This document shows positions 21,611 through 37,870 of a stretch of DNA of 43,072 nucleotides, one piece after another. Where the stretch lies: IMG/VR virus record IMGVR_UViG_3300044675_002196, positions 1 through 43,072 of that record; one strand, 5' to 3'. Position numbers and translations under genes: made by a program. Every line of letters starts with the position of its first letter. The stretch's first letter is position 1. The DNA comes from a virus. Under the pieces are notes generated by a model. That model ran no database searches, was not told the origin of the DNA, and was given only the letters and a program-made list of their open reading frames with translations.

Positions 21611-22282
21611 TTAGACCTCTTCCAGAGTAACAGAAACATTCCACATATCAAAATTATTTCCACCACGCTTTACAACTGAGTAATTAAAACTTGACACAAA
21701 CATTTGACGAGCTTCAGAATAACCTCTAAGATTTTTGTCGTTAGCAAAAGTAGAATATTTGTCGTAACCAAGCAATACCCAAAAAGGTCCTTTATGATTT
21801 TCATACCAATTCAAAAGATCTATGCCACCAGCTCCGCCATCAACAGTGTATTGAGTTTCTGGACCTAGGCCATCTGCGTCTGGAGACTTTTGACTAAGAG
21901 ATGTAGAAGCGTTTGCTTGATTAAAATTAGGTATAGAACTAAATGATCTTGATGGAAGCATTGACCATGAGGTGTCTATGGTTAGTTTGTCTGCAATAAA
22001 GAATGATCTCATTGTTCCATTTGCCATTCTTTGACGTTGTTCAATTCGTTCATTAGAAACGTTAATTTCAGATCTGTTATGGTCAGAAAGGATTATAAAA
22101 GACTGTTCTAGCTGTTGTGCTGTAAGACCAGTTTCATTAGATCCAAGTTCGTATCCTACAGGAATTAAGTATCCTTCTCCTGTAACTGTTGGAGTCTCAT
22201 CAGCCCATACCATTGCCTGTGGACGACCAGCGGCTGGCCCTCTTAGTCTTCTATTAGACATGTAGTTTTGTGTTACTGTCAT
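21611..22282 (-). CDS. Distal tail (Dit-like) protein
   Basis: A 223-residue protein placed directly after the tape measure gene and before the hub, which is the usual site of the distal tail protein that forms the ring joining tube and tip. Visible features are a basic N-terminus (NRRLRGPAAGRPQAM), a central PNFNQANAS section and a C-terminal strand pair (ARQMFVSSFNYSVVKRGG, DMWNVSVTLEE) that reads like tube-type beta-strands. The start overlaps the tape measure stop (TAATG) with AGGTGA ahead of it. Assignment is mainly by position. Confidence 0.6.
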   Translation of the reverse strand: MTVTQNYMSNRRLRGPAAGRPQAMVWADETPTVTGEGYLIPVGYELGSNETGLTAQQLEQSFIILSDHNRSEINVSNERIEQRQRMANGTMRSFFIADKLTIDTSWSMLPSRSFSSIPNFNQANASTSLSQKSPDADGLGPETQYTVDGGAGGIDLLNWYENHKGPFWVLLGYDKYSTFANDKNLRGYSEARQMFVSSFNYSVVKRGGNNFDMWNVSVTLEEV

Positions 22283-25200
22283 TATCTAATCACCTGTCTT
22301 CTAACTCTTTGAGAATCAATGCCCTGCAATTTTTTCATTACAACATTAGCTATTTGGTCTGGGCTGGCATTTGTACCGTCAACGTTTACACTCAAGCTAT
22401 AATTATACACTGAATTGTCTTGTGATGTCAAAGAAGATGCGGTATTCAATTGACTATTTAGTGGCATAGTTCCACCAGCAGGTGCATAAGCTTTTTCTGG
22501 CATATTGTAAACTGGTTTTGAAAAGTCGTTTGGAACTGTTAATCCAGACGGAGTAGAGTATTTAAAGTTTCCACTATTAATGGCTTGAAGCAATGGTGCA
22601 AATCGTTTTGTTGAAGCTTTATTTACTACAAACTCTCCAGGAGTTAGCATAGATGGAACTGTGTCAGTACCTTTGGCAAATCCTCCACTTGCAAATAAGC
22701 TTGGACTTATCATTCCACCTTTAGCTGCCATTAGCATGCGGCCACCACCTCCACCGCCGCCTGTTGACAGAGCTCCAGCTGCTCTAAGAATAGCGTCTGC
22801 CTGAGCCTTTGTTATTTTTGCAAGATAGCTATTTATCAGTGCCTCTGCTCTGTCCCCAGTAGAGTTACTTACTCCAGCGGCTTTGCGTAGTTCTGCAGAA
22901 ACTTTTGCTGAAATAGCCCTATCATTCATAGCCTGTCTAATCCTATTTGCCTGAGTTGTTGGATTATCAGCATTTGGATCATTTGTTGTAGTAGTTGTAC
23001 TACCGTTACCGCCGCTTCCACCACCACTAGAGGTATGAATAGTGTTAACAACGTGAGTAGTTGTGTAGGTATCGTTTAGTTTACTCCACTCTCCCACAAG
23101 ACCCTGAGCATTTATAAGTGCTTTGGCAACTTCTGCTTCATATAGAGCCGCATTTGCTTTAGACGCATCAATTCTTGTATTGATATTTTCCCATTCAGTT
23201 TTACTTAGACCTTGAACTCTAAGGTTTTCTATTGCGGCTGCAGCTAGTTCATCAGCTAGCTCAACAGCATCCCTTGCATTTTGCAAAGCTCCAAACTCAA
23301 TAGTTTCAATTTCTTTCTTAATTCGTTTAATTTCATCTTCAATTTCAGCCCTAGTTTTTCCATTTTGTGTTAATGCTTTTAGTTCTGCTTGTCTTGATGC
23401 GTCAAGAGCATTGCCAATAGCATCTCCCTGAGCAGCTGCGTTTTGAGCTCTAGAGTCTTGAATTGCTTTGGCCGCTGCGCCAATATCTCCTTGAGACAAT
23501 GCATCAGCAATAGACAGCTGAGACTTTTGCTGATTAATAATATCTTGATTTATCTTCTTTACTTTTTCAAGTGATTTATTCTTTTCATCATAAGCCTTGT
23601 TAATTTCATCTTCTTTTTCAGAAATCTTTTCTAAGTCTCTTTCAAGTTCAGCAGATCTTCTTTGATATACGTCAATTTGCTTTTCAAGGGCTTCAATCAT
23701 TTTTCTAGTTGTAGCAGTTGCAGCTTCATTATTCATGTTTATAATATTTTCTTGAGCATTAAATACATCCATAACCTTTGAGTAAACATCTGCAAAATGC
23801 TCTGCTCTACCTTCTGGTGTTGAGTTTAGCCAAGCCTCTTCTTCTGCCCTAGCTGCTCTAATTGCTGTTACCAGCTCATTCCATTTTTTACTGCCAACTT
23901 TTTCAGATGCTAAAGCAGCAGCAAGCATTGAGTCTTTTGCAATTGTAGTTGCTTCGCCAACTGCAAAGCCAGCAGATCTTAGTTTGGCATAAGCCATGAT
24001 ACTACTCTTAGCTTCTTTTTGTTGCTCTTTAAGTTGATCCATTGCTTGTTGGAATGCAGACTTTTGTCCACCACCACCACCGCCACCTGGCTTTAAACCT
24101 TCTCTTTCTTTCTTTAAAGCATCAAGACCTTCAGCACTGAGTTTAAAAGCATCTACAGCTGCAGTGTTTCCATTAATTGCATCTGTGGCCATGGCTGCTT
24201 TTAGCGCAGCTACCTGAGCGGCATCTCCTGTAAGTTGGTAAGCAAGTTCGGCATCCATTCCTGCAGCAACTAAAGTGTGATAAGCGTCAATTGATGCTTG
24301 AATAGACTCAGCTTCAATGCTGTCTTGTTCTAGAGTATTGCTTAGTTGCTTTGCCTCATTTGCTGCTTGTTGAGCTTTGGTTTGTGTCACTATTGCTGCA
24401 GCAATACGCTTTCTAGCTTTTACTGCGTTGTCCTGTATAGTTTTATTATCTTTGTTTTCTTCTTTGCTAGCCTCTTTTAGAATGTCTAGGTCATCAGAGG
24501 CATCAATCCCAGCAACAGCAGCCTGCAAAGCCAAAGACTTGTCTGCTGCATCTGTTAAGCCTTTAACTACATCTTGAAGTCCCATTTTTTCTGCTAATGA
24601 ATCTAACATCCAAGATGGTTGTTCTGCAGAGTTTAAAGTATTAAACAAGTCAGAAAGTGATTGATTATAAATATCTGCTGATATATTTCCACTTTCAAAA
24701 GCGATGGTTAAAGAGTCAAGTGATGATTTTGCTACACCAGCTGCAGCCTGAGTTTCTTTTTGAGTTTCTGTTTTTACAGTTTGTAGCTGGCTACCTTTGC
24801 CACCTCTTTGAGTAACTCCTTTTGCTTCTTGTTCAGACACTGCTTTGTCAAAGTTTGCAATTGCTTCTTTTGCTAAATCTGCTGCAGCAGTTGCACTACT
24901 TTGATCAGTAATAAAAATTGGTTTGAAGTTTAGCTGTAAATCAGTTTGTTCTGCTTTTGCAGCAATTGATGAAATAATTGCACTGACTGCCTCATCTTCA
25001 AATCCTGAATTACGAAGCTGTGTTGCCAAAGATTCCAATGCAAGTTGTGCTTCTTCTTTAGTTGCATTCTTTATTCCAGAAATTTCTGATGCAAATTCTT
25101 TTTCAAATTCTGGATCTATCATTAAGTCTACAACTTGTTTTTGTTCTTCCGTTGATTTTCCAGAAGTTGCCAACATTGCTTTAGCTCTGTCCGCCCAATT

Positions 25201-28200
25201 AATGCTCTTAGCTGTAACATTAAATTTATCTGCAAGGAATTTTAGCTTTTCTTCGCTTAAGCTAGCTGCGTTGCCAAGGCCCTCAATTCTTTTTCTAGTT
25301 TCTTCTGCAATATGATTGAACAGCATAAACCCGCCAGCAAGAAGAGCTAGTCCTGCTACAACTAATCCGATGGGGCCAAGAGCGGCATACAAAGCTGCAC
25401 CAGTCACGGAGACTGCAGTTCCAAAGACTCCTGTTCCTGCAGTGGCTGCTGCTGTTACTGCTAGCCTAATTGCTTCCTGAACTGCAGCAAGCCTCGCTAA
25501 GGCTTTTTCTGTTATCATAAGGTCTTGATATGCCTTAACTATTGAGATTAATGCAAACAGTCCACCAGAAACCAAAGAAACTGTTCCAGCAACTCCTTGC
25601 ATTTCTCCACCAAACATATAAAGAATACCAGATACTGAAGACAAGGCCATCGTTGCTTGAGACGCTGTATTCATCATCTTGTCCATGTTTGTTTTGGTTC
25701 TTGTGACTGTCTGTCCTAGACCTTGCATTGAACCAGCTACCTGTTGCTCCCTAAGCTCTTTATCGCCCTCACGTGTAACTCTTCTAGGTCCTCTTGGTGT
25801 TCCTGCAACTATGTTTGCTGAGTCTCTAGTTGATTGTGTGTTTTGCTGGTTTCTTCTGTCTATGTCTGCTTGAGTTGCTGGGTCAGAACTTGCCCTTCTT
25901 ATCTTTCCTTGTTGTGCAGCAGTGTTTACTACTGTTTCTCCAAGAACCTCCCCAGCTTTTTTAGCTTCTGGTCCTGCTTCTTGAACTCCAGCTTTAACGT
26001 TATTTGAAAGATTTGTAAATTCTTCAGCTGGAGAGCTTACGCCAAGACCTTTTTCTGTTGCTTTTCTAAGAGACTCTTTTATTCTATCTAAAAATCCATT
26101 TACAAGCTTAGCGGCTGCTTGATCTACTGTAGTACCTACCGCTTCAAGATTTCCCAAAGCTCTTTGTTCAGCAGCCTTAAGTTCTGACTGAACAGCTTCG
26201 TCTCTAACAATCATTGCCGAAATAGTTTTATTATCTCTACCACCAGTAACCTTGACTTTGTTTGCTGGACCAATAAAGTTAGGATCTGCGTTTGCGTACT
26301 CAACGCCACCATCTTCACTCTTGATTCCTCTTGTTGTCATTACGTCTCTGAGTCTTCCACCGCCAGTTCCCCTTGGACCAACTCCAATTGTTAATGCCTC
26401 ATCTTGTACAAACTTAGAAGCTTTAAAGATTTGTTCTTTTAAAGCAAGTTTTGCTGCAACTAGAGCCTCTTCTGCAGTTCCTCCATTTTGGATAACCTTG
26501 TTATATGCTTCTTGAATTATTGCAGTTCTTTCTGCAGCTGCGTTGCGAGCATCTTGTATAGTTTTATACGATGTGTCTTTTAGTGCTGCTTGCTCAAGAG
26601 CTTTTGTAGCGTGATCCATTACAAAGTTGTAATCAGCCTGTACTGCATCAACACTACTTAAGGCTATTCTTGCCTCCTCTCCTTCTTCTGTTAAAAGTCT
26701 TAGTTCATTTGCTAGCTCTGATCCATCGTCTCCAATTCTTTCTAGTTCTATTCCTGCCAGTCTTCCATTTTCAACAACTTCTTCTAAATTGGTTGCACCT
26801 CCAGAAATACCAGCAGCAGTATAGGCCCTTTGATTTCTAACTTTTCCTTCTAAAATTCCAGTAGCTCCAAAACCCTTTCCTCCTACTAAGGCATCGTGCT
26901 CTTCTGGGTCATATCTTTCAACAGCTTCTCCTAAAGTCATAAATCTTTCAGTTACGGTGTTTACCTTTTTTCCAGAATCGTCTACGCTTGTTGTTAACTC
27001 TACGACTCGAATTCTCATATTTCTCAACTCGTCGCTAACCAGAGTTACAGCTCTTGCTGTTTCTAAAAATTCTCTTGGGGAAAAACCTTTTGAGTGAGAA
27101 ACATTCGTTGGGGCAGAGCCATCTTGTCCAAACATACTCTCTAGGTTACTTACTGCTGGAATTTTTACTCCACGGCTATACCCTGGAATATTTCCTGCAA
27201 TCATTGCATTAATTAAGGGTGCATACTTTTTTGCCATTTCTGCAGGTATAACTGCTTCACCAGGAGTTAGCATTGCTGGTGTAACGTCTCCTGCACCCTT
27301 TGGTCCTGGTACGCTAACAATTCCGTTTGCCAATTCAAGTGGGGCTGCCTGTGTTCCAGCCTTTGGCTTAGCTGGTTTTACTGCAGAGTGAATAGCGTGG
27401 AACTTGCTCCAGTCAACACCAAGACCAGCCTCAAGCCTTCTAATCATGTCGTCGTAAACGCCAACCTCTGTTGGATTGGTTAATTTAAAAGATGCAATTG
27501 TTTCTTTAAGTCTTGGAAGAACCTTTTGAATTTCTCCAAGCATCTTAGCCTTATATTGCTCTGGAGTTAGTCCTGCCATCAAGCCTAATGTTGATTCTGC
27601 AAAAGCTCTCTTAGCACCACCCTTAATGCCAAGTAGATTTACAATTGCTTGCTCTTCCATTGATGGAAGATTGTTTTCGTAATCTCTTAAACCAGATGCC
27701 CTGCTAAATACACCAGATGGTCCAGCATCTGCAACAACGTTTCCATAAACGTTTGAGCCAGACAAATCTTTATCAACACGTAGTAGCGATGCAACTAATT
27801 GTCTAAAGTATTGCTCTTCATTAAACAAGCCCATGGGCTGATTATTAACAAACTTTGGATCAAGGTCGGATTCTAATGCCAAGAACCTTCTAGTTCTGGT
27901 TGTATCCATTGGGTCTCTTATTACAACAATTCTTTGTTCTGGTGCTTCTAGACCGTGAGCCCTTCTTGAAATTTCAGTTGATCGCATTTCAGCAAGTGCT
28001 GCTTTTTCGTCTAACACTGGCTTTACGAATACTTGCTTATTACCTTTTTTGTATACCCCGCCAAGACCAAAGATTGGGAAACTGTGTCCAGATGTTGGAG
28101 AAATTTGATGACCATATTCTGTAGGAGCTGTATTTGCATAACTACTCTTTAAGAACATTTCATATATTTCTTGGGAAGCATCTCTATTTTTAGATACAGA

Positions 28201-30396
28201 CTTTGCTGACCTTGGCATTCCAAGCATGACGCCCTTGGCGTACCCTGGAATATTTCCTGCAATCATGCCTTCAATTAGAGGGGCATACTTTTTAACCATC
28301 TCTGCAGGGATAACTGCCTCACCAGGAGTTAGAAGTGCTGGCTCTGTGTCTTTGTTTCCACGACCACCAACAGTTACCACCCCACCCTTTGCCATTTTTA
28401 CTGGAGCAGCAACAGATCCTGGCTTCATCATGCCTGGGTTAAGCATTGCAAACCTAGCCCCTGCGGCCGCTGCTGCCTCGTAGGCGATACGTAACTGGTC
28501 TACTGCAGTCTTTTCTGCTGTAAACCTTTGCGTCAGTCCTGCGTGGGCCTGGTCAAGCGAAGCAGCTGCAGCTGCAGCCTCTAGCTGCTCTTGAGTCATG
28601 TATTGAGTTTCGTCACCAATACCCTTTGCCTGACCAGTCATCTTTAAATAGCCAAGACGAACGGTAGCAAAGAACTTAATCATATTAGCAATACCATTAT
28701 TAATTAGACCAAAAGTCATTAAGAGAACTGGGCCTAAGCCTCCAACAACAGTAACCACAGTTCCAATTATTTGTTTCAGTCCATCTGGAAGACTATTAAA
28801 TGCTTTTAGAACTGTAGTTGCAAAATCAATAAATGGTGTTGCTATCTTTAAGAACATTTCTCCTACTGGTGCAAGAGCCACCTTTAGCTGTTCAACAGAT
28901 GCCTTAAATTTATTCATTGCAGAGGCTGCAGAAACCCCAAGCTCTTTATTTGCCATGTCTGCTAGATCACTTGCTGAGGCTCCAGCTAAATCAAGAACTC
29001 GTGCTGCCTGACTACCATCTTTAACAACGTTGTCAAAAAGTGCTGACATTCTTGCAAACTGGAACTTTCCAAAAAGTTGTTCAATTGCCTGAGCTCTTCT
29101 TTGTGGATCTAGGGTATCTAAGGATTTTGCAAACTCAACTATTGTTCCACTAATATCACCTTTATTTCTAGCAACAATTCCTCTAAGATCAATGCCTAGT
29201 TGGCCAATAAATTGAGTGGCTGACTCTGATGGATTAATTAATGACGCTAAACCAGACTTAAGTGCGTTAGCTCCTTGAGCGGCATTAATGCCACCTTCTT
29301 TCATAGCTGCTAGGAAAAAGGCTAGGTCTCTAACATCTCCACCAAGAGATTGAATAACTGGTGCTACCCTTGGCACAGCTTCAGTAATGTCGTCAAGCGA
29401 TACTACTGTTTGGTTTTCTACTGCGTTAAGAAAGTCAATTTCTCCAGCTAGATTTTGAGATGAAATATTAAAAGCATTTTGCAAAGCAATGGTTGTTTCC
29501 AATGCCTGCTGCAATTCTATTTGTCCAAGTACAGATAGCTTTAGAGCTGCTGTGGTCTGATTTTGTAAAGCTACCCCTTGAAAACCAGCGGCTGCTGCCT
29601 CAGACGCTACCTCTAGAGAGTCTGAAACTGCAACACCATATTTAGTATATGCAAGGCCAAGTTCCATAATGGAATCTAGAGCTTTATTAGTTTCTCCAGG
29701 AGCAGTAAACAAATCTCCATAAACTTTTTTAAACTTGAGTGCTGCTTTTTCCATGTCCATAAAGACACGTCCAGCAGTAATACCAAGACTGGCAAGAGGT
29801 AGAGTAAAACCAACCATAAGCTGACGACCAGCCCACTGAGTATTCTTACCAAAGTTTAGTAGGTTAGTTGATCCTTGCTTAATTAATTGATTAAAGATTA
29901 CTTGTTTTTGAGCAGCGATTGCTGTTTGAGTTCCCAGGTCCTTCATATTAAGGACAGTAGGTCTAATAGCAATAGCTTGCATTGCACCTTGAGCATCACG
30001 ACCCATTTTTACATATTGAGTCTGCAGAGTCTTTACACGCTCTATTGCGGTTTTTTCAATTGTTGCAAACTCTGAGGTAAAGTTTTTACCAAATGTTTTT
30101 GTTTGACTTGCAGCATACCTAAAGTATTGCTGGATAGAGAATTTATTTTTCTCAAGGGAGTTTGTAAATGTTTCTGCACTAGTTCTAACCGTACGTAATT
30201 CTGCAGAAAAACCTTTAATAGCATTTACGCCATTAATAAAGTTCTTCTGCAGATCACGTTGGGCTATGGCTGCAGCTGAAGATGATTTTGCTACTGATTG
30301 GTGAAATTGAGAGATCTGTCGTTGCAGACTCTTAAGCTGATTTAAAGCATCAGATGTATCAATGCTTACGCCAATATTGGCATTAACATCAGCCAT
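22282..30396 (-). CDS. Tape measure protein, 2704 residues, with inserted domains
   Basis: This sets tail length and runs through the tail tube. The N-terminus is coiled coil, then a TP901-type core at about residues 200-500 (LDDITEAVPRVAPVIQSLGG, AFFLAAMKEGGINAAQGANA). Hydrophobic stretches lie near 560-590, 1582-1617 and 1665-1695. Segments with LTPGEAVIPAEM repeat near residues 670-722 and 1023-1075, and a third variant LTPGEFVVNK lies near 2580. Residues about 760-1010, between the first two copies, look like a protein-kinase-like fold. A long coiled coil spans about 2205-2355. By the usual 1.5 angstrom per residue the tail could approach 400 nm, less if the inserts do not span the tube. 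AAGGTG precedes the ATG. Confidence 0.92.
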   Translation of the reverse strand: MADVNANIGVSIDTSDALNQLKSLQRQISQFHQSVAKSSSAAAIAQRDLQKNFINGVNAIKGFSAELRTVRTSAETFTNSLEKNKFSIQQYFRYAASQTKTFGKNFTSEFATIEKTAIERVKTLQTQYVKMGRDAQGAMQAIAIRPTVLNMKDLGTQTAIAAQKQVIFNQLIKQGSTNLLNFGKNTQWAGRQLMVGFTLPLASLGITAGRVFMDMEKAALKFKKVYGDLFTAPGETNKALDSIMELGLAYTKYGVAVSDSLEVASEAAAAGFQGVALQNQTTAALKLSVLGQIELQQALETTIALQNAFNISSQNLAGEIDFLNAVENQTVVSLDDITEAVPRVAPVIQSLGGDVRDLAFFLAAMKEGGINAAQGANALKSGLASLINPSESATQFIGQLGIDLRGIVARNKGDISGTIVEFAKSLDTLDPQRRAQAIEQLFGKFQFARMSALFDNVVKDGSQAARVLDLAGASASDLADMANKELGVSAASAMNKFKASVEQLKVALAPVGEMFLKIATPFIDFATTVLKAFNSLPDGLKQIIGTVVTVVGGLGPVLLMTFGLINNGIANMIKFFATVRLGYLKMTGQAKGIGDETQYMTQEQLEAAAAAASLDQAHAGLTQRFTAEKTAVDQLRIAYEAAAAAGARFAMLNPGMMKPGSVAAPVKMAKGGVVTVGGRGNKDTEPALLTPGEAVIPAEMVKKYAPLIEGMIAGNIPGYAKGVMLGMPRSAKSVSKNRDASQEIYEMFLKSSYANTAPTEYGHQISPTSGHSFPIFGLGGVYKKGNKQVFVKPVLDEKAALAEMRSTEISRRAHGLEAPEQRIVVIRDPMDTTRTRRFLALESDLDPKFVNNQPMGLFNEEQYFRQLVASLLRVDKDLSGSNVYGNVVADAGPSGVFSRASGLRDYENNLPSMEEQAIVNLLGIKGGAKRAFAESTLGLMAGLTPEQYKAKMLGEIQKVLPRLKETIASFKLTNPTEVGVYDDMIRRLEAGLGVDWSKFHAIHSAVKPAKPKAGTQAAPLELANGIVSVPGPKGAGDVTPAMLTPGEAVIPAEMAKKYAPLINAMIAGNIPGYSRGVKIPAVSNLESMFGQDGSAPTNVSHSKGFSPREFLETARAVTLVSDELRNMRIRVVELTTSVDDSGKKVNTVTERFMTLGEAVERYDPEEHDALVGGKGFGATGILEGKVRNQRAYTAAGISGGATNLEEVVENGRLAGIELERIGDDGSELANELRLLTEEGEEARIALSSVDAVQADYNFVMDHATKALEQAALKDTSYKTIQDARNAAAERTAIIQEAYNKVIQNGGTAEEALVAAKLALKEQIFKASKFVQDEALTIGVGPRGTGGGRLRDVMTTRGIKSEDGGVEYANADPNFIGPANKVKVTGGRDNKTISAMIVRDEAVQSELKAAEQRALGNLEAVGTTVDQAAAKLVNGFLDRIKESLRKATEKGLGVSSPAEEFTNLSNNVKAGVQEAGPEAKKAGEVLGETVVNTAAQQGKIRRASSDPATQADIDRRNQQNTQSTRDSANIVAGTPRGPRRVTREGDKELREQQVAGSMQGLGQTVTRTKTNMDKMMNTASQATMALSSVSGILYMFGGEMQGVAGTVSLVSGGLFALISIVKAYQDLMITEKALARLAAVQEAIRLAVTAAATAGTGVFGTAVSVTGAALYAALGPIGLVVAGLALLAGGFMLFNHIAEETRKRIEGLGNAASLSEEKLKFLADKFNVTAKSINWADRAKAMLATSGKSTEEQKQVVDLMIDPEFEKEFASEISGIKNATKEEAQLALESLATQLRNSGFEDEAVSAIISSIAAKAEQTDLQLNFKPIFITDQSSATAAADLAKEAIANFDKAVSEQEAKGVTQRGGKGSQLQTVKTETQKETQAAAGVAKSSLDSLTIAFESGNISADIYNQSLSDLFNTLNSAEQPSWMLDSLAEKMGLQDVVKGLTDAADKSLALQAAVAGIDASDDLDILKEASKEENKDNKTIQDNAVKARKRIAAAIVTQTKAQQAANEAKQLSNTLEQDSIEAESIQASIDAYHTLVAAGMDAELAYQLTGDAAQVAALKAAMATDAINGNTAAVDAFKLSAEGLDALKKEREGLKPGGGGGGGQKSAFQQAMDQLKEQQKEAKSSIMAYAKLRSAGFAVGEATTIAKDSMLAAALASEKVGSKKWNELVTAIRAARAEEEAWLNSTPEGRAEHFADVYSKVMDVFNAQENIINMNNEAATATTRKMIEALEKQIDVYQRRSAELERDLEKISEKEDEINKAYDEKNKSLEKVKKINQDIINQQKSQLSIADALSQGDIGAAAKAIQDSRAQNAAAQGDAIGNALDASRQAELKALTQNGKTRAEIEDEIKRIKKEIETIEFGALQNARDAVELADELAAAAIENLRVQGLSKTEWENINTRIDASKANAALYEAEVAKALINAQGLVGEWSKLNDTYTTTHVVNTIHTSSGGGSGGNGSTTTTTNDPNADNPTTQANRIRQAMNDRAISAKVSAELRKAAGVSNSTGDRAEALINSYLAKITKAQADAILRAAGALSTGGGGGGGRMLMAAKGGMISPSLFASGGFAKGTDTVPSMLTPGEFVVNKASTKRFAPLLQAINSGNFKYSTPSGLTVPNDFSKPVYNMPEKAYAPAGGTMPLNSQLNTASSLTSQDNSVYNYSLSVNVDGTNASPDQIANVVMKKLQGIDSQRVRRQVIR
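22402..22431 (-). promoter_or_regulatory. Candidate promoter ahead of the distal tail gene
   Basis: The minus strand reads TTGACA (22431-22426), an 18-base spacer, then TATAAT (22407-22402). Both hexamers are perfect. It lies inside the 3' end of the tape measure gene, about 120 bases before the distal tail ATG. Coding sequence constrains these bases, so chance remains possible. Confidence 0.5.
22569..22715 (-). repeat. Third, diverged copy of the tape measure segment
   Basis: This encodes GGFAKGTDTVPSMLTPGEF followed by VVNKASTKRFAPLLQAINSG. It aligns with the two copies at 27171 and 28229 in the PxMLTPGE and FAPLLxAI positions, but the rest has diverged. It lies near the C-terminus of the tape measure protein. 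Confidence 0.6.
27171..27331 (-). repeat. Second copy of duplicated tape measure segment
   Basis: This encodes VTPAMLTPGEAVIPAEM, KKYAPLINAMIAGNIPGYS. It is near-identical in protein to the copy at 28229-28394, and the DNA shares CCCTGGAATATTTCCTGCAA on the plus strand. The two copies frame the kinase-like region. Confidence 0.75.
28229..28394 (-). repeat. First copy of duplicated tape measure segment
   Basis: This encodes TEPALLTPGEAVIPAEM, VKKYAPLIEGMIAGNIPGY. The close DNA match to the copy about 1060 bases away suggests duplication around the intervening domain. LTPGE-type segments of this sort are seen in other actinophage tape measure proteins. Confidence 0.75.
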
Positions 30397-30415: not shown

Positions 30416-30727
30416 TTATGCAATAATGTTTGCCCCAGTCAGGTTGGCACCTGATGCAGCTTCAACAATCTTGTAGACTGTTGGTAAATCTAGCAGTTCC
30501 TCTAGCTTTGCAGGATCAGTAGCTAGCTCTGGGCTATACTGCTTCATTGCAATTGCTACGCATTCTAGAAGAAGATTCATTGATTTCTCGTTGTCTTCTG
30601 CTACTGCTGTTACTCCCTCAAACTTTTTCATAAAAGGCTTTAGTAGTGAAATTTTCAATGGACGAACCTGAATGGTTGTTCCATCAATAAGTGTTAGTGT
30701 TTCTGCTTCATAAGTTGTTGTTGCCAT
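30416..30727 (-). CDS. Tail assembly chaperone, short form
   Basis: A 103-residue protein placed directly before the tape measure gene, the usual place of the G-type tail chaperone that coats the tape measure during tail assembly. It aligns without gaps to the first 95 residues of the 244-residue protein just upstream: both share TIDG/LIDG, PLKI/PIKI and ECxxIAMKQYxPE. Most long-tailed phages make the long form by a programmed frameshift from the short gene. Here there is no downstream frame to shift into, since the tape measure gene starts 20 bases after the stop. It has its own promoter and an AAGGAG site. Confidence 0.75.
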   Translation of the reverse strand: MATTTYEAETLTLIDGTTIQVRPLKISLLKPFMKKFEGVTAVAEDNEKSMNLLLECVAIAMKQYSPELATDPAKLEELLDLPTVYKIVEAASGANLTGANIIA

Positions 30728-30768
30728 GTTTATTTTCTCCTTGTTCTACCCATAGTTAGGTTATACTT

Positions 30769-30796
30769 ATTATATCACAAGCTAGCTTTTTTTCAA
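30769..30796 (-). promoter_or_regulatory. Strong candidate promoter for short chaperone and tape measure
   Basis: The minus strand reads TTGAAA (30796-30791), a 16-base spacer, then TATAAT (30774-30769), with TGA directly before it (extended -10). It lies between the two chaperone genes. The leader to the ATG at 30727 is about 35 bases and contains AAGGAG. Confidence 0.65.
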
Positions 30797-31516
30797 GACC
30801 TTTGGGTCTCTAAGATCTTCATACCCTAGGCCCATCCCAATACCAAAACCAGCCTTTTTTGCGTTCTGTCCTTGTAAAGAAAGAACATCGTCTGAGTCTG
30901 AAGTTGCTCCACCACTAAACACCCTAGCCTTCATGTCTTCCCATTCTTTTTGACCCTTGACCTTTTGATCACCCTTACCGCTTTGACTATCTAGGTCTAT
31001 ACCCTGAAGTGCTGCAGAAAACTTCTTTTCTTCATAATCTAGATCTCTTGTAATAGATAGTATTTGCATTAGTTCTTCTATAGATATAGATGATTCTAGT
31101 TCGTCAAAGTTTTTCCAAATACCCAGCAAAAATACCTCTGACTCAAGCTTAGCTAGGTCTAGGCTATTCCAGCTAGATTCGTTATCTTCTTTCTTAGCCT
31201 GATCAACAACTGCTTCATCTGAGTTTTTCTTAATGTCAATACCTGCTGAATATTTTAATATGTCATATATTGAGTCTAAATCAAAATTATCTTCAATCTG
31301 AAAAACATCTTTAGAAAACTCTGGATAGTATTGTTTCATAGCTATCCTACAGCATTCTGCTAACACCTCAATAGTTTCTTCTTCATTTTGAGATTGCTGA
31401 ACGCTGTCAAATGCAGCCATTAATTGTCTTAGATATTTTATTTTAATTGGTATTATTTCAATCTCTAATCCATCAATTGTTTTTACATATCCTGTTTTAT
31501 ATACTTCTGTTGGCAT
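30782..31516 (-). CDS. Tail assembly chaperone, long form
   Basis: A 244-residue protein. Residues 1-95 are homologous to the 103-residue protein downstream (shared ECxxIAMKQYxPE near residues 55-67 and matching IDG and PIKI blocks). The extra 150 residues are acidic and then helical (SWNSLDLAKLESEVFLLG, SIEELMQILSITRDL) and end near the tape-measure side with GFGIGMGLGYEDL. This domain layout is that of a GT-type fusion, normally made by frameshifting. Here it is a separate upstream gene. No ribosome site precedes the ATG at 31516; a -10-like TAAACT lies 6 bases ahead, suggesting a leaderless start. Confidence 0.72.
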   Translation of the reverse strand: MPTEVYKTGYVKTIDGLEIEIIPIKIKYLRQLMAAFDSVQQSQNEEETIEVLAECCRIAMKQYYPEFSKDVFQIEDNFDLDSIYDILKYSAGIDIKKNSDEAVVDQAKKEDNESSWNSLDLAKLESEVFLLGIWKNFDELESSISIEELMQILSITRDLDYEEKKFSAALQGIDLDSQSGKGDQKVKGQKEWEDMKARVFSGGATSDSDDVLSLQGQNAKKAGFGIGMGLGYEDLRDPKVLKKS

Positions 31517-31522
31517 AATATA

Positions 31523-31531
31523 AGTTTACCA
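31523..31531 (-). promoter_or_regulatory. Candidate extended -10 for a leaderless start
   Basis: The minus strand reads TGG directly before TAAACT (31528-31523), and the ATG follows after only 6 bases (31522-31517). No Shine-Dalgarno motif is present. This matches the geometry of leaderless transcripts, where the first base of the start codon is also +1. The element immediately follows a strong terminator. Confidence 0.5.
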
Positions 31532-31567
31532 TAAAACGACAAAACCCACTCCTATTAAAGAGTGGGT
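31532..31567 (-). terminator. Intrinsic terminator after the major tail protein gene
   Basis: On the minus strand ACCCACTCTT (31567-31558) pairs with AGGAGTGGGT (31553-31544) over ten pairs (one G-U) around a TAAT loop. A T-rich run, TTTGTCGTTTTA, follows. It lies about 20 bases beyond the stop of the major tail gene. Confidence 0.88.
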
Positions 31568-31588
31568 CCGTCTTTTAGCTTTTATAGA

Positions 31589-32227
31589 TTATGATGTTGC
31601 GTTGACTGTGCGGTCAATGATTTTTCCATAAGATCCTTCTGAGTCATCTGGTAGAAGACGGAAAGATACTTCAAACATGGAAGCCTCATCACGCTTAGCT
31701 GATACTGTAACATTCTCAATTGACAATGCACGGTATGCAACGTAAACACGCTCAAGAGCAGAACCAATTTCACAGTCACCTGTACCTGGACCTACTGCAA
31801 TGATACCACGCTCTACTGGGCACTCACCAAGCTCTCCTGCGGACAAATCTAATGATCGTCCAGTTGCAAGGGATCCAAGTGTTCCAGTTAGCTTGTTATC
31901 TCCATATGCAAGAGCAATAAGAAGATTCTCTAGTGTAGCCTCAGCAAATGCTGTGTTAAGATTAACCTGCATTCCCTGCTTGTATAGCTTAGCTACGTCT
32001 AGTAGCTGGTCAACCTGAACTTCTCCGAAGTCTGGCTGAAACTGAATCTCAAGTCCATTCATTGTGTAACCAATGTTTGTAAAACCTGGGTCATCAGATA
32101 GTGTTTCACGATAAGACTCATTGTCAACAAAAGTTGGTCTAGTACTGATATCCAGTACTGTGTCAGCAACGAAGAACGAAGCTGCACCTACAATAATGTT
32201 GGTTGAGTCACCACGAGTATATGCCAT
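31589..32227 (-). CDS. Major tail protein
   Basis: A 212-residue protein expected to form the tail tube. It contains typical tube-type strands, FTNIGYTMNGLEIQFQPDFG near residues 49-68, a VDQLLDVAKLY helix, and a C-terminal FEVSFRLLPDD. It is read from the ATG at 32227 (start MAYTRGD), because AGAGGTG stands at the right spacing; a GTG at 32236 lies inside the ribosome site itself and is unlikely. An extended -10 promoter lies upstream and a strong terminator downstream, so it is a single-gene, high-output unit. Confidence 0.75.
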   Translation of the reverse strand: MAYTRGDSTNIIVGAASFFVADTVLDISTRPTFVDNESYRETLSDDPGFTNIGYTMNGLEIQFQPDFGEVQVDQLLDVAKLYKQGMQVNLNTAFAEATLENLLIALAYGDNKLTGTLGSLATGRSLDLSAGELGECPVERGIIAVGPGTGDCEIGSALERVYVAYRALSIENVTVSAKRDEASMFEVSFRLLPDDSEGSYGKIIDRTVNATS

Positions 32228-32295
32228 AATTTTCACCTCTTTCTAATAGGAAAAATGGTATTTAGTTGTAATTGGCGGTTGTTTCCTCAAGACTA

Positions 32296-35192: not shown

Positions 35193-35209
35193 AATTTTCT
35201 CCAATTTTA

Positions 35210-35218
35210 ATTATATCA
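35210..35218 (-). promoter_or_regulatory. Extended -10 promoter after the capsid terminator
   Basis: The minus strand reads TGA followed by TATAAT (35215-35210), the same string as at 32296-32304. It lies just beyond the terminator of the major capsid gene, so transcription restarts for the head-tail joining genes. The leader would be about 12 bases and include GGAG. Confidence 0.6.
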
Positions 35219-35224
35219 GAATAT

Positions 35225-37062: not shown

Positions 37063-37812
37063 CTCCTTGTTAATCTCAATTGTATTAATGCCTTTAGCAC
37101 TATCAACCAAGAACTTTATCATTTCAGAATTGTCTGAATCTGTCTTTTCAACAAATCCAATATTCTGCATTGCCTTACCAGATTTTGGACTCTCCGCTGA
37201 GTCTCCTTCTGATAGGAAAACTATGTCATTCTCTGAATCCCAGAAAACATTTTCAATCTCTGTTTTAGAAAGATATCCATCAATTGTTGTTTGTCCATTT
37301 ACCTTTTCAATAGAAAAAATATTTGCAAACTGGTTTGCTGGATTGTCTACTAGAGATAGTTCGTGTAGTTCGTATTCTTTAATTATACGAATTGGAGTAT
37401 CACTACCGCTGTCTACTTTGTCGTCATACTTCTTGATGTTACCCCCAATAGAAAAACCTGAGTAAGTTCCATCAAGAACCTTTTCCCAGGCATCTTGTGC
37501 ACCCTTAGAAACATAAGCAGAAACATAAACACCAGAATAGAATTTCTTTGTGCTTGGGTCAAAGTAACGATCTTCTTTAAAAGATACTACCTTTCCTACT
37601 GCTGAGGGCTGGTGCATTTCACGAAGATTACCACGGAAATTTTTGAATGCTGTAAGGCTAGCAGATGTGTCTACGACATCACCCTGCCTGTCTACGTTGT
37701 CAAGGGTAGCAAAACCAGAAACGACTCTGCGCTCTTTATCCACTTTACCAATAGGCATTGACAGACGAACATTGTCGCCGTCAGTCACCCATTGTGCCTT
37801 ATTAATATTCAT
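36445..37812 (-). CDS. Prohead protease with C-terminal scaffold region
   Basis: A 455-residue protein. Residues 1-165 are an HK97-type (U35) prohead protease: H67 in LREMHQPSAVGKV, S121 in YSGFSIGG, and E151/D156 in ELHELSLVDNPAN, the usual catalytic region. The protease matures the capsid by removing scaffold. From about residue 251 the sequence becomes acidic, then helical, as in scaffolds. HK97 itself uses a separate delta domain on the capsid; here the scaffold is fused to the protease. The ATG at 37812 has an extended -10 only 9 bases upstream, so its leader is very short. It lies in its standard place between portal and capsid genes. Confidence 0.88.
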   Translation of the reverse strand: MNINKAQWVTDGDNVRLSMPIGKVDKERRVVSGFATLDNVDRQGDVVDTSASLTAFKNFRGNLREMHQPSAVGKVVSFKEDRYFDPSTKKFYSGVYVSAYVSKGAQDAWEKVLDGTYSGFSIGGNIKKYDDKVDSGSDTPIRIIKEYELHELSLVDNPANQFANIFSIEKVNGQTTIDGYLSKTEIENVFWDSENDIVFLSEGDSAESPKSGKAMQNIGFVEKTDSDNSEMIKFLVDSAKGINTIEINKEVSPMDETTNEAVEVAAEAVAEEAVVEETQVAPEADAPVEATEGSVEKAVKSDDMDEDDKEDEDEMSKSKDKKSYDEDEDEMSKAKSAMPDDEDKTEVAKSNDVVEVAVADLTATVTKAFSDLSEIVKAQADQISELTKSIEAVKNDVTANKAVFDEFGKRVDAVVADTAFRKSGDLGEIVQELPEMKVQKSLWGGRFLTNNDLFK

Positions 37813-37821
37813 ATCCCTTTA

Positions 37822-37830
37822 ATTATAGCA
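37822..37830 (-). promoter_or_regulatory. Extended -10 promoter before the protease gene
   Basis: The minus strand reads TGC directly followed by TATAAT (37827-37822), 9 bases before the ATG at 37812, so the transcript would have almost no leader. A second weaker TGA-TATACT stands at 37865-37860; it would give about 40 bases of leader with AAAGGG. This is the only gap of more than 30 bases between portal and protease genes. Confidence 0.5.
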
Positions 37831-37870
37831 AACATTTTATCGGTTTTATAACTTTTTACAGTATATCACA

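Follow-up and report, generated by a model that had tools for sequence, protein, structure and literature searches.

Frameshifting between the tail assembly chaperone genes G and T has been described as widely conserved among long-tailed phages. In phage lambda, a locus flanked by the tail tube gene and the tape measure gene yields, by -1 frameshifting within one gene, a short G and a long GT protein that share an N-terminal domain. Both lambda proteins bind the tape measure protein, T recruits the tail tube protein, and the G:GT ratio of ~30:1 matters (PMC5009743). In TP901-1, a forced permanent GT fusion without a separate G produced whole-looking, non-infectious virions, and a G-null mutant gave aggregates that the authors took for tape measure protein (PMC4493119). 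Some T4-like phages reportedly carry one short and one fused long gene and do without frameshifting (PMC10274946, citing Vladimirov et al. 2022). The annotated phages that strongly match the locus described here in tblastn searches are Streptomyces phages of the Stanwilliamsviridae. Among these, Circinus, Sham, BoomerJR, Emma1919, Wakanda and Coruscant have a single G gene followed by T, with the T frame at -1 relative to G in five of the six (frames were read in five). G and T are annotated as joined genes in Sham and Emma1919, and the Loccivirinae have the slippery site C_CCA_AAT.

The window analyzed here is the whole of positions 1-43,072 (43,072 nucleotides) of IMG/VR virus record IMGVR_UViG_3300044675_002196. 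Its minus strand carries, in order, genes for a major tail protein with an Ig domain (31589..32236; PHROG 2175, syntenic with the 'major tail protein' of Stanwilliamsviridae), a 244-aa protein (30782..31516), a 103-aa protein (30416..30727) and a 2704-aa tape measure protein (22282..30396; PHROG 10030, tail length tape measure protein, E = 3.3e-103). The sole Pfam match of the tape measure protein is PhageMin_Tail (252-443); its residues ~700-1010 appear to form a globular insert, kinase-like by eye, between repeats of LTPGEAVIPAEM(V/A)KKYAPLI. The initial annotation had read the two middle genes as tandem long and short tail chaperones, and both open reading frames are present, the long one first. 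They are 54 nt apart, the tape measure gene starts 19 nt past the short gene, and the pair sits between the major tail protein and tape measure genes, as in annotated relatives. The long gene encodes an N-terminal G domain (approximately residues 1-98; 31223..31516), a linker and a C-terminal T domain (residues 116-244; 30785..31171, placed by alignment) with ~43-50% identity to the -1-frame T of Streptomyces phages. Judged from similarity and gene order, the 244-aa and 103-aa proteins are probably the tail assembly chaperones GT and G, with the tape measure protein as their presumed client and the major tail protein as the presumed ligand of the T domain. The locus thus resembles lambda in having a short G and a long GT with a common N-terminal domain between tail tube and tape measure genes but differs from it in not deriving both from one gene by -1 frameshifting.

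The two proteins are clearly related through their N-terminal domain, to which the long form adds T. The homology over 95 residues claimed at first was recovered by BLASTP (33/96 identical, 34%, E = 4e-16), although not as a gap-free alignment, since it contains one gap. The shared motif IAMKQYxPE occurs in both proteins, as IAMKQYSPE and IAMKQYYPE, and profile-profile comparison of the short and long families gives a probability of 99.9 (E = 1.8e-36, 99 columns). Pfam returned nothing convincing for either protein. PHROG assigns the fused protein to two separate families (10504 for residues 1-107 and 10474 for residues 133-202), presumably because its halves are separate frames in the phages from which the PHROGs were built. 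A difference in fold, which would have spoken against the initial reading, was not seen in the predicted secondary structure of the N-terminal domains: in both models, two strands are followed by five helices. In a fold search of the PDB, the short model found the HK97 tail assembly chaperone 2ob9 first, if weakly (E = 0.65, Z = 4.9), and matched lactococcal p2 ORF12 (3d8l) with Z = 3.5. In the BFVD, the long model matched N15 GT and many proteins named as tail assembly chaperones, mostly weakly; its failure to find a chaperone in the PDB is probably due to poor prediction of its C-terminal half (past residue ~170). Searching the sequences of solved structures with these proteins gave chance matches only.

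Relatives pooled from four IMG/VR scans, one scan of genome contigs and annotated phages comprise at least 325 loci with G/T matches, and all locus counts given here are minimum figures. A fused GT followed by a separate G (the GT-G layout) is present in at least 289 loci, at least 103 of them non-redundant and the window included, and the fused gene is a single open frame in all 103 listed non-redundant relatives. A single G overlapping T in the -1 frame, with no second G (the G-T layout), is present in at least 34 loci (at least 21 non-redundant), which are Streptomyces phages of the Stanwilliamsviridae and some environmental contigs. Apart from L142 and L277, the 325 listed loci have only these two layouts, and a fusion without a second G was found in none of them except L142 and L277, both of which are cut at the contig edge. 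The TP901-1 results imply that a fused GT needs another source of G, and this strict pairing of the fusion with a second G fits that expectation. The distribution also bears on whether two phages, or a collapsed repeat, were joined in one contig by misassembly: nothing was found in favour of that explanation, and with the same order in at least 289 loci, mostly on separately named contigs and 103 of them without near-copies, it is refuted by independent contigs and retains a practically negligible probability.

Stanwilliamsviridae loci agree with the window in gene order (major tail protein, G, T, tape measure), in their homologous G and T domains and in the terminator-promoter slot ahead of G; unlike the window, they have a single G with T in the -1 frame (CCCAAAT in Loccivirinae) and no second copy. 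In many of their records (L161, L163, L165 and others), T is annotated as a separate 'hypothetical protein' or second chaperone open reading frame that starts downstream of the frameshift site and is not given as a joined GT gene. The genome-contig scan yielded one relative, L248 (CAINGU010000031.1), with the frameshift layout. Its 110-kb contig has been placed in a cyanobacterial MAG and, given its Streptomyces-phage-like tail module, may be a misbinned actinophage. The Rhodococcus phages Trina and NiceHouse match T weakly, NiceHouse with an annotated joined frameshift gene and Trina with two adjacent open reading frames. Matches of the short protein in Serratia, Pectobacterium and Bacillus were dismissed as chance (E ~0.7-1 among the matches listed).

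Features associated with recoding separate the two kinds of G gene. In frameshift-type G, the -1 frame stays open for at least 150 nt beyond the stop codon in 21/21 listed non-redundant loci; a hidden frame after the 103-aa gene, which the initial annotation had named as contrary evidence along with a slippery site, was absent, neither the -1 nor the +1 frame being open that far in any of the 103 listed relatives with a separate short G. Canonical X_XXY_YYZ heptamers, searched for in the last 30 codons of G, occur in 16 of the 21 frameshift-type genes (2.8 expected), mostly as CCCAAAT/C or GGGAAAC, and in 7 of the 103 separate short genes against 12.9 expected. The short G of the window has no such heptamer, and its -1 frame closes 17 nt past the stop. 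Alternatively, the fused gene might also yield a short G, by frameshifting or an early stop, so that the downstream copy is an extra source. The linker of the window does contain an imperfect slippery stretch, AAG AAA AAC. Across the relatives, however, linker heptamers are rarer than in codon shuffles (17/103 against 27 expected) and not conserved in kind, and no conserved site for a frameshift back to a short product was found in the 103 listed fused genes; we regard this alternative as very unlikely.

Phylogenies of the two domains support a single origin of the fusion. In the T tree, all fused Ts fall to one side of one branch (SH-aLRT 90, below 95), with the frameshift contigs L282, L321 and L324 nearest to them. 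In the G tree, fused Gs form one clade (98/99) and separate Gs another (99/97), the separate short Gs standing beside the frameshift Gs of L321 and L282. Because the alignments are short (99-118 columns) and many forks unsettled, with the fused G domain on a long branch, a second origin is still conceivable. In L321 the state before the fusion seems to live on: G there is almost like that of the short gene and is followed by G_GGA_AAC and by T in the -1 frame. A frameshift ancestor had been suggested as a search target; its counterparts are found among Streptomyces phages and close environmental relatives, L321 and L282 included. The ancestor probably made GT from one G gene by -1 ribosomal frameshifting. 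One common ancestor of the lineage would then have acquired a tandem copy of G and an in-frame fusion of the upstream copy to T, leaving GT to a dedicated gene and G to the downstream copy. The suggestion that duplication replaced recoding is supported by the layouts of the relatives; that the G:GT ratio is now set by expression is a reading of the start signals.

The two genes have opposite designs of start signal. The short gene has a promoter, TTGAAA-16-TATAAT with a TG extension (30769..30796, minus strand), that fits 11/12 consensus positions, and a Shine-Dalgarno sequence AAGGAG (also given as AGGAGG; 30737..30742, minus strand). Among 103 listed relatives, an exact TATAAT is found in 99, the TG extension in 100 and a Shine-Dalgarno match of at least 5 in 100, and the distance from -10 to start codon is 24-28 nt in most. 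The fused gene has an extended -10 (TGGTAAACT; 31523..31531, minus strand) that ends 6 nt before the ATG, without a Shine-Dalgarno sequence. Its -10 is usually degenerate (exact TATAAT in 16 of 101 listed relatives), yet the TG extension is present in 100/101, the -10 ends 6-9 nt from the start codon in 94/101, a Shine-Dalgarno sequence is absent in 91/101, and there is no sign of a -35. A terminator-like hairpin with a 12-bp stem (31542..31569, minus strand) separates the major tail gene from the fused gene, and a hairpin with a stem of at least 7 is found there in 97/101 listed relatives. No terminator was found between the fused and short genes in the window. Frameshift-type G genes also have a leader, and a Shine-Dalgarno match of at least 4 is present in 21/21 of the listed loci, which suggests that the short gene retains the ancestral design and that the fused gene departs from it.

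A separate promoter for each gene had been proposed from the window, where a scan for promoter-like sites is at chance level (10 against 9.2 +/- 2.4 in shuffles). The promoters were therefore judged by conservation, and on that count the proposal is supported: both signals recur across 101-103 relatives, and the same -10 test on mononucleotide shuffles is positive in ~3 of 101-103 loci. A -10 this near the start codon, given the usual 6-8 nt from -10 to the start of the RNA, suggests that the fused-gene transcript is leaderless.

Taken together, these signals suggest how the two proteins might be supplied in unequal amounts. GT, behind a terminator and with an extended -10 that lacks both a -35 and a Shine-Dalgarno sequence, would probably be made from a low-output leaderless mRNA. 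G, whose gene has a leader, a strong Shine-Dalgarno sequence and an extended -10 close to consensus, would be made directly ahead of the tape measure gene. With no terminator found to separate the genes in the window, read-through from the GT promoter may add to the supply of G, whereas GT would come solely from the leaderless promoter. By analogy with the described systems, excess G would coat the tape measure protein, and the T domain of scarce GT would recruit the tail tube protein. Abundant G and scarce GT are thus probably set by transcription and initiation rather than by recoding. Leaderless initiation can be efficient in Actinobacteria, however, so weak GT output is not certain. We consider it very likely that, in this actinophage lineage, duplication and fusion with separate start signals replaced frameshifting as the means of keeping G in excess and GT scarce.

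Codon adaptation, computed with the major tail gene as reference, is in line with higher expression of the short gene. Mean values run from 0.655 (short G) through 0.586 (start of the tape measure gene) and 0.546 (fused G domain) to 0.537 (T); short G exceeds the fused G domain in 61/63 loci (p = 1.6e-11, which is optimistic since the loci are related). In the window, the value for short G, 0.706, comes near those of the capsid and tail genes (0.757 and 0.770), themselves the reference, and of the stretches compared none scores lower than the fused G domain (0.474). Synonymous divergence is likewise lower for short G (0.30) than for fused G (0.52). The fused G domain has evolved at about 2.5 times the rate of the short copy, with total branch lengths of 13.7 and 5.5 over the same 27 loci, as might be expected if one copy were a decaying or dispensable duplicate. 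Yet purifying selection acts on both copies (dN/dS mostly 0.05-0.3 for the fused domain and <0.2 for the short gene) and both are retained in every listed GT-G locus not cut at a contig end; dN/dS and retention together refute decay as a general statement, and we hold it to be extremely improbable.

The divergence of the copies could instead mean that the chaperone work falls to the long protein and that the short paralogue serves another purpose, possibly binding a different stretch of the tape measure protein or another tail protein, with no G:GT system of set ratio. N-terminal domains that are just 34% identical, unequal rates of evolution (13.7 against 5.5) and four positions fixed differently between the copies, notably 27-28 (S-L in the short protein, K-Y in the long), would all suit such a division. 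The short gene, though, clusters with the G of frameshift relatives, retains the ancestral leader and Shine-Dalgarno sequence, lies directly ahead of the tape measure gene and is never found alongside a frameshift T in the listed loci, and we judge a different job for it unlikely. A stronger version of replacement by duplication and fusion, in which a single event made the exchange, the ratio passed to two promoters of opposite kinds (leaderless and weak for GT, strong and with a leader for G) and the fused G domain later became a dedicated initiator that is not interchangeable with G, is plausible, with the balance tipped slightly against it.

Separate short and fused chaperone genes are not new in principle, having been reported in some T4-like phages. 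The window shares with those phages a separate short gene, an in-frame fused long gene and the lack of frameshifting, and differs in belonging to a Stanwilliamsviridae-related lineage with living frameshift relatives. We take gp26 and gp51 to be the chaperone pair of T4; the two are mutually homologous (E = 2e-6) and encoded on opposite strands, and BLASTP of the proteins of the window against them (P0001 against gp51, P0002 against gp26) gave no convincing match. The window pair would work like the T4-like genes, whether or not the two arrangements share a descent. In a published passage on them, the Microbacterium cluster EA phages are not said to have paralogues or a fusion plus a duplicate, and no description of the arrangement in actinophages was found in the mostly freely available literature searched. 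What appears to be new is the lineage, its frameshift relatives, from which the direction of change can be read, and the contrasting start-signal designs.

A whole lineage thus appears to have escaped G-T frameshifting, with close relatives still in the frameshift state. Those relatives make it possible to test, by swapping the layouts, what frameshifting is needed for, whether the ratio or co-translational coupling. Our data suggest that the constraint on the ratio moved away from ribosomal recoding and now lies in promoters and initiation signals. Chaperones of this kind will escape annotation tools that search for a frameshift. Leaderless-type extended -10 sites are also present elsewhere on the minus strand of the window, TTTGCTATAATT at 37812-37832 ahead of the head protease gene and TCTGATATAATT at 35204-35220 ahead of the gene that follows the major capsid gene, this second site with a strong terminator-like hairpin upstream (35256-35231). 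The phage seems to restart transcription from sites of this type at several late-gene borders.
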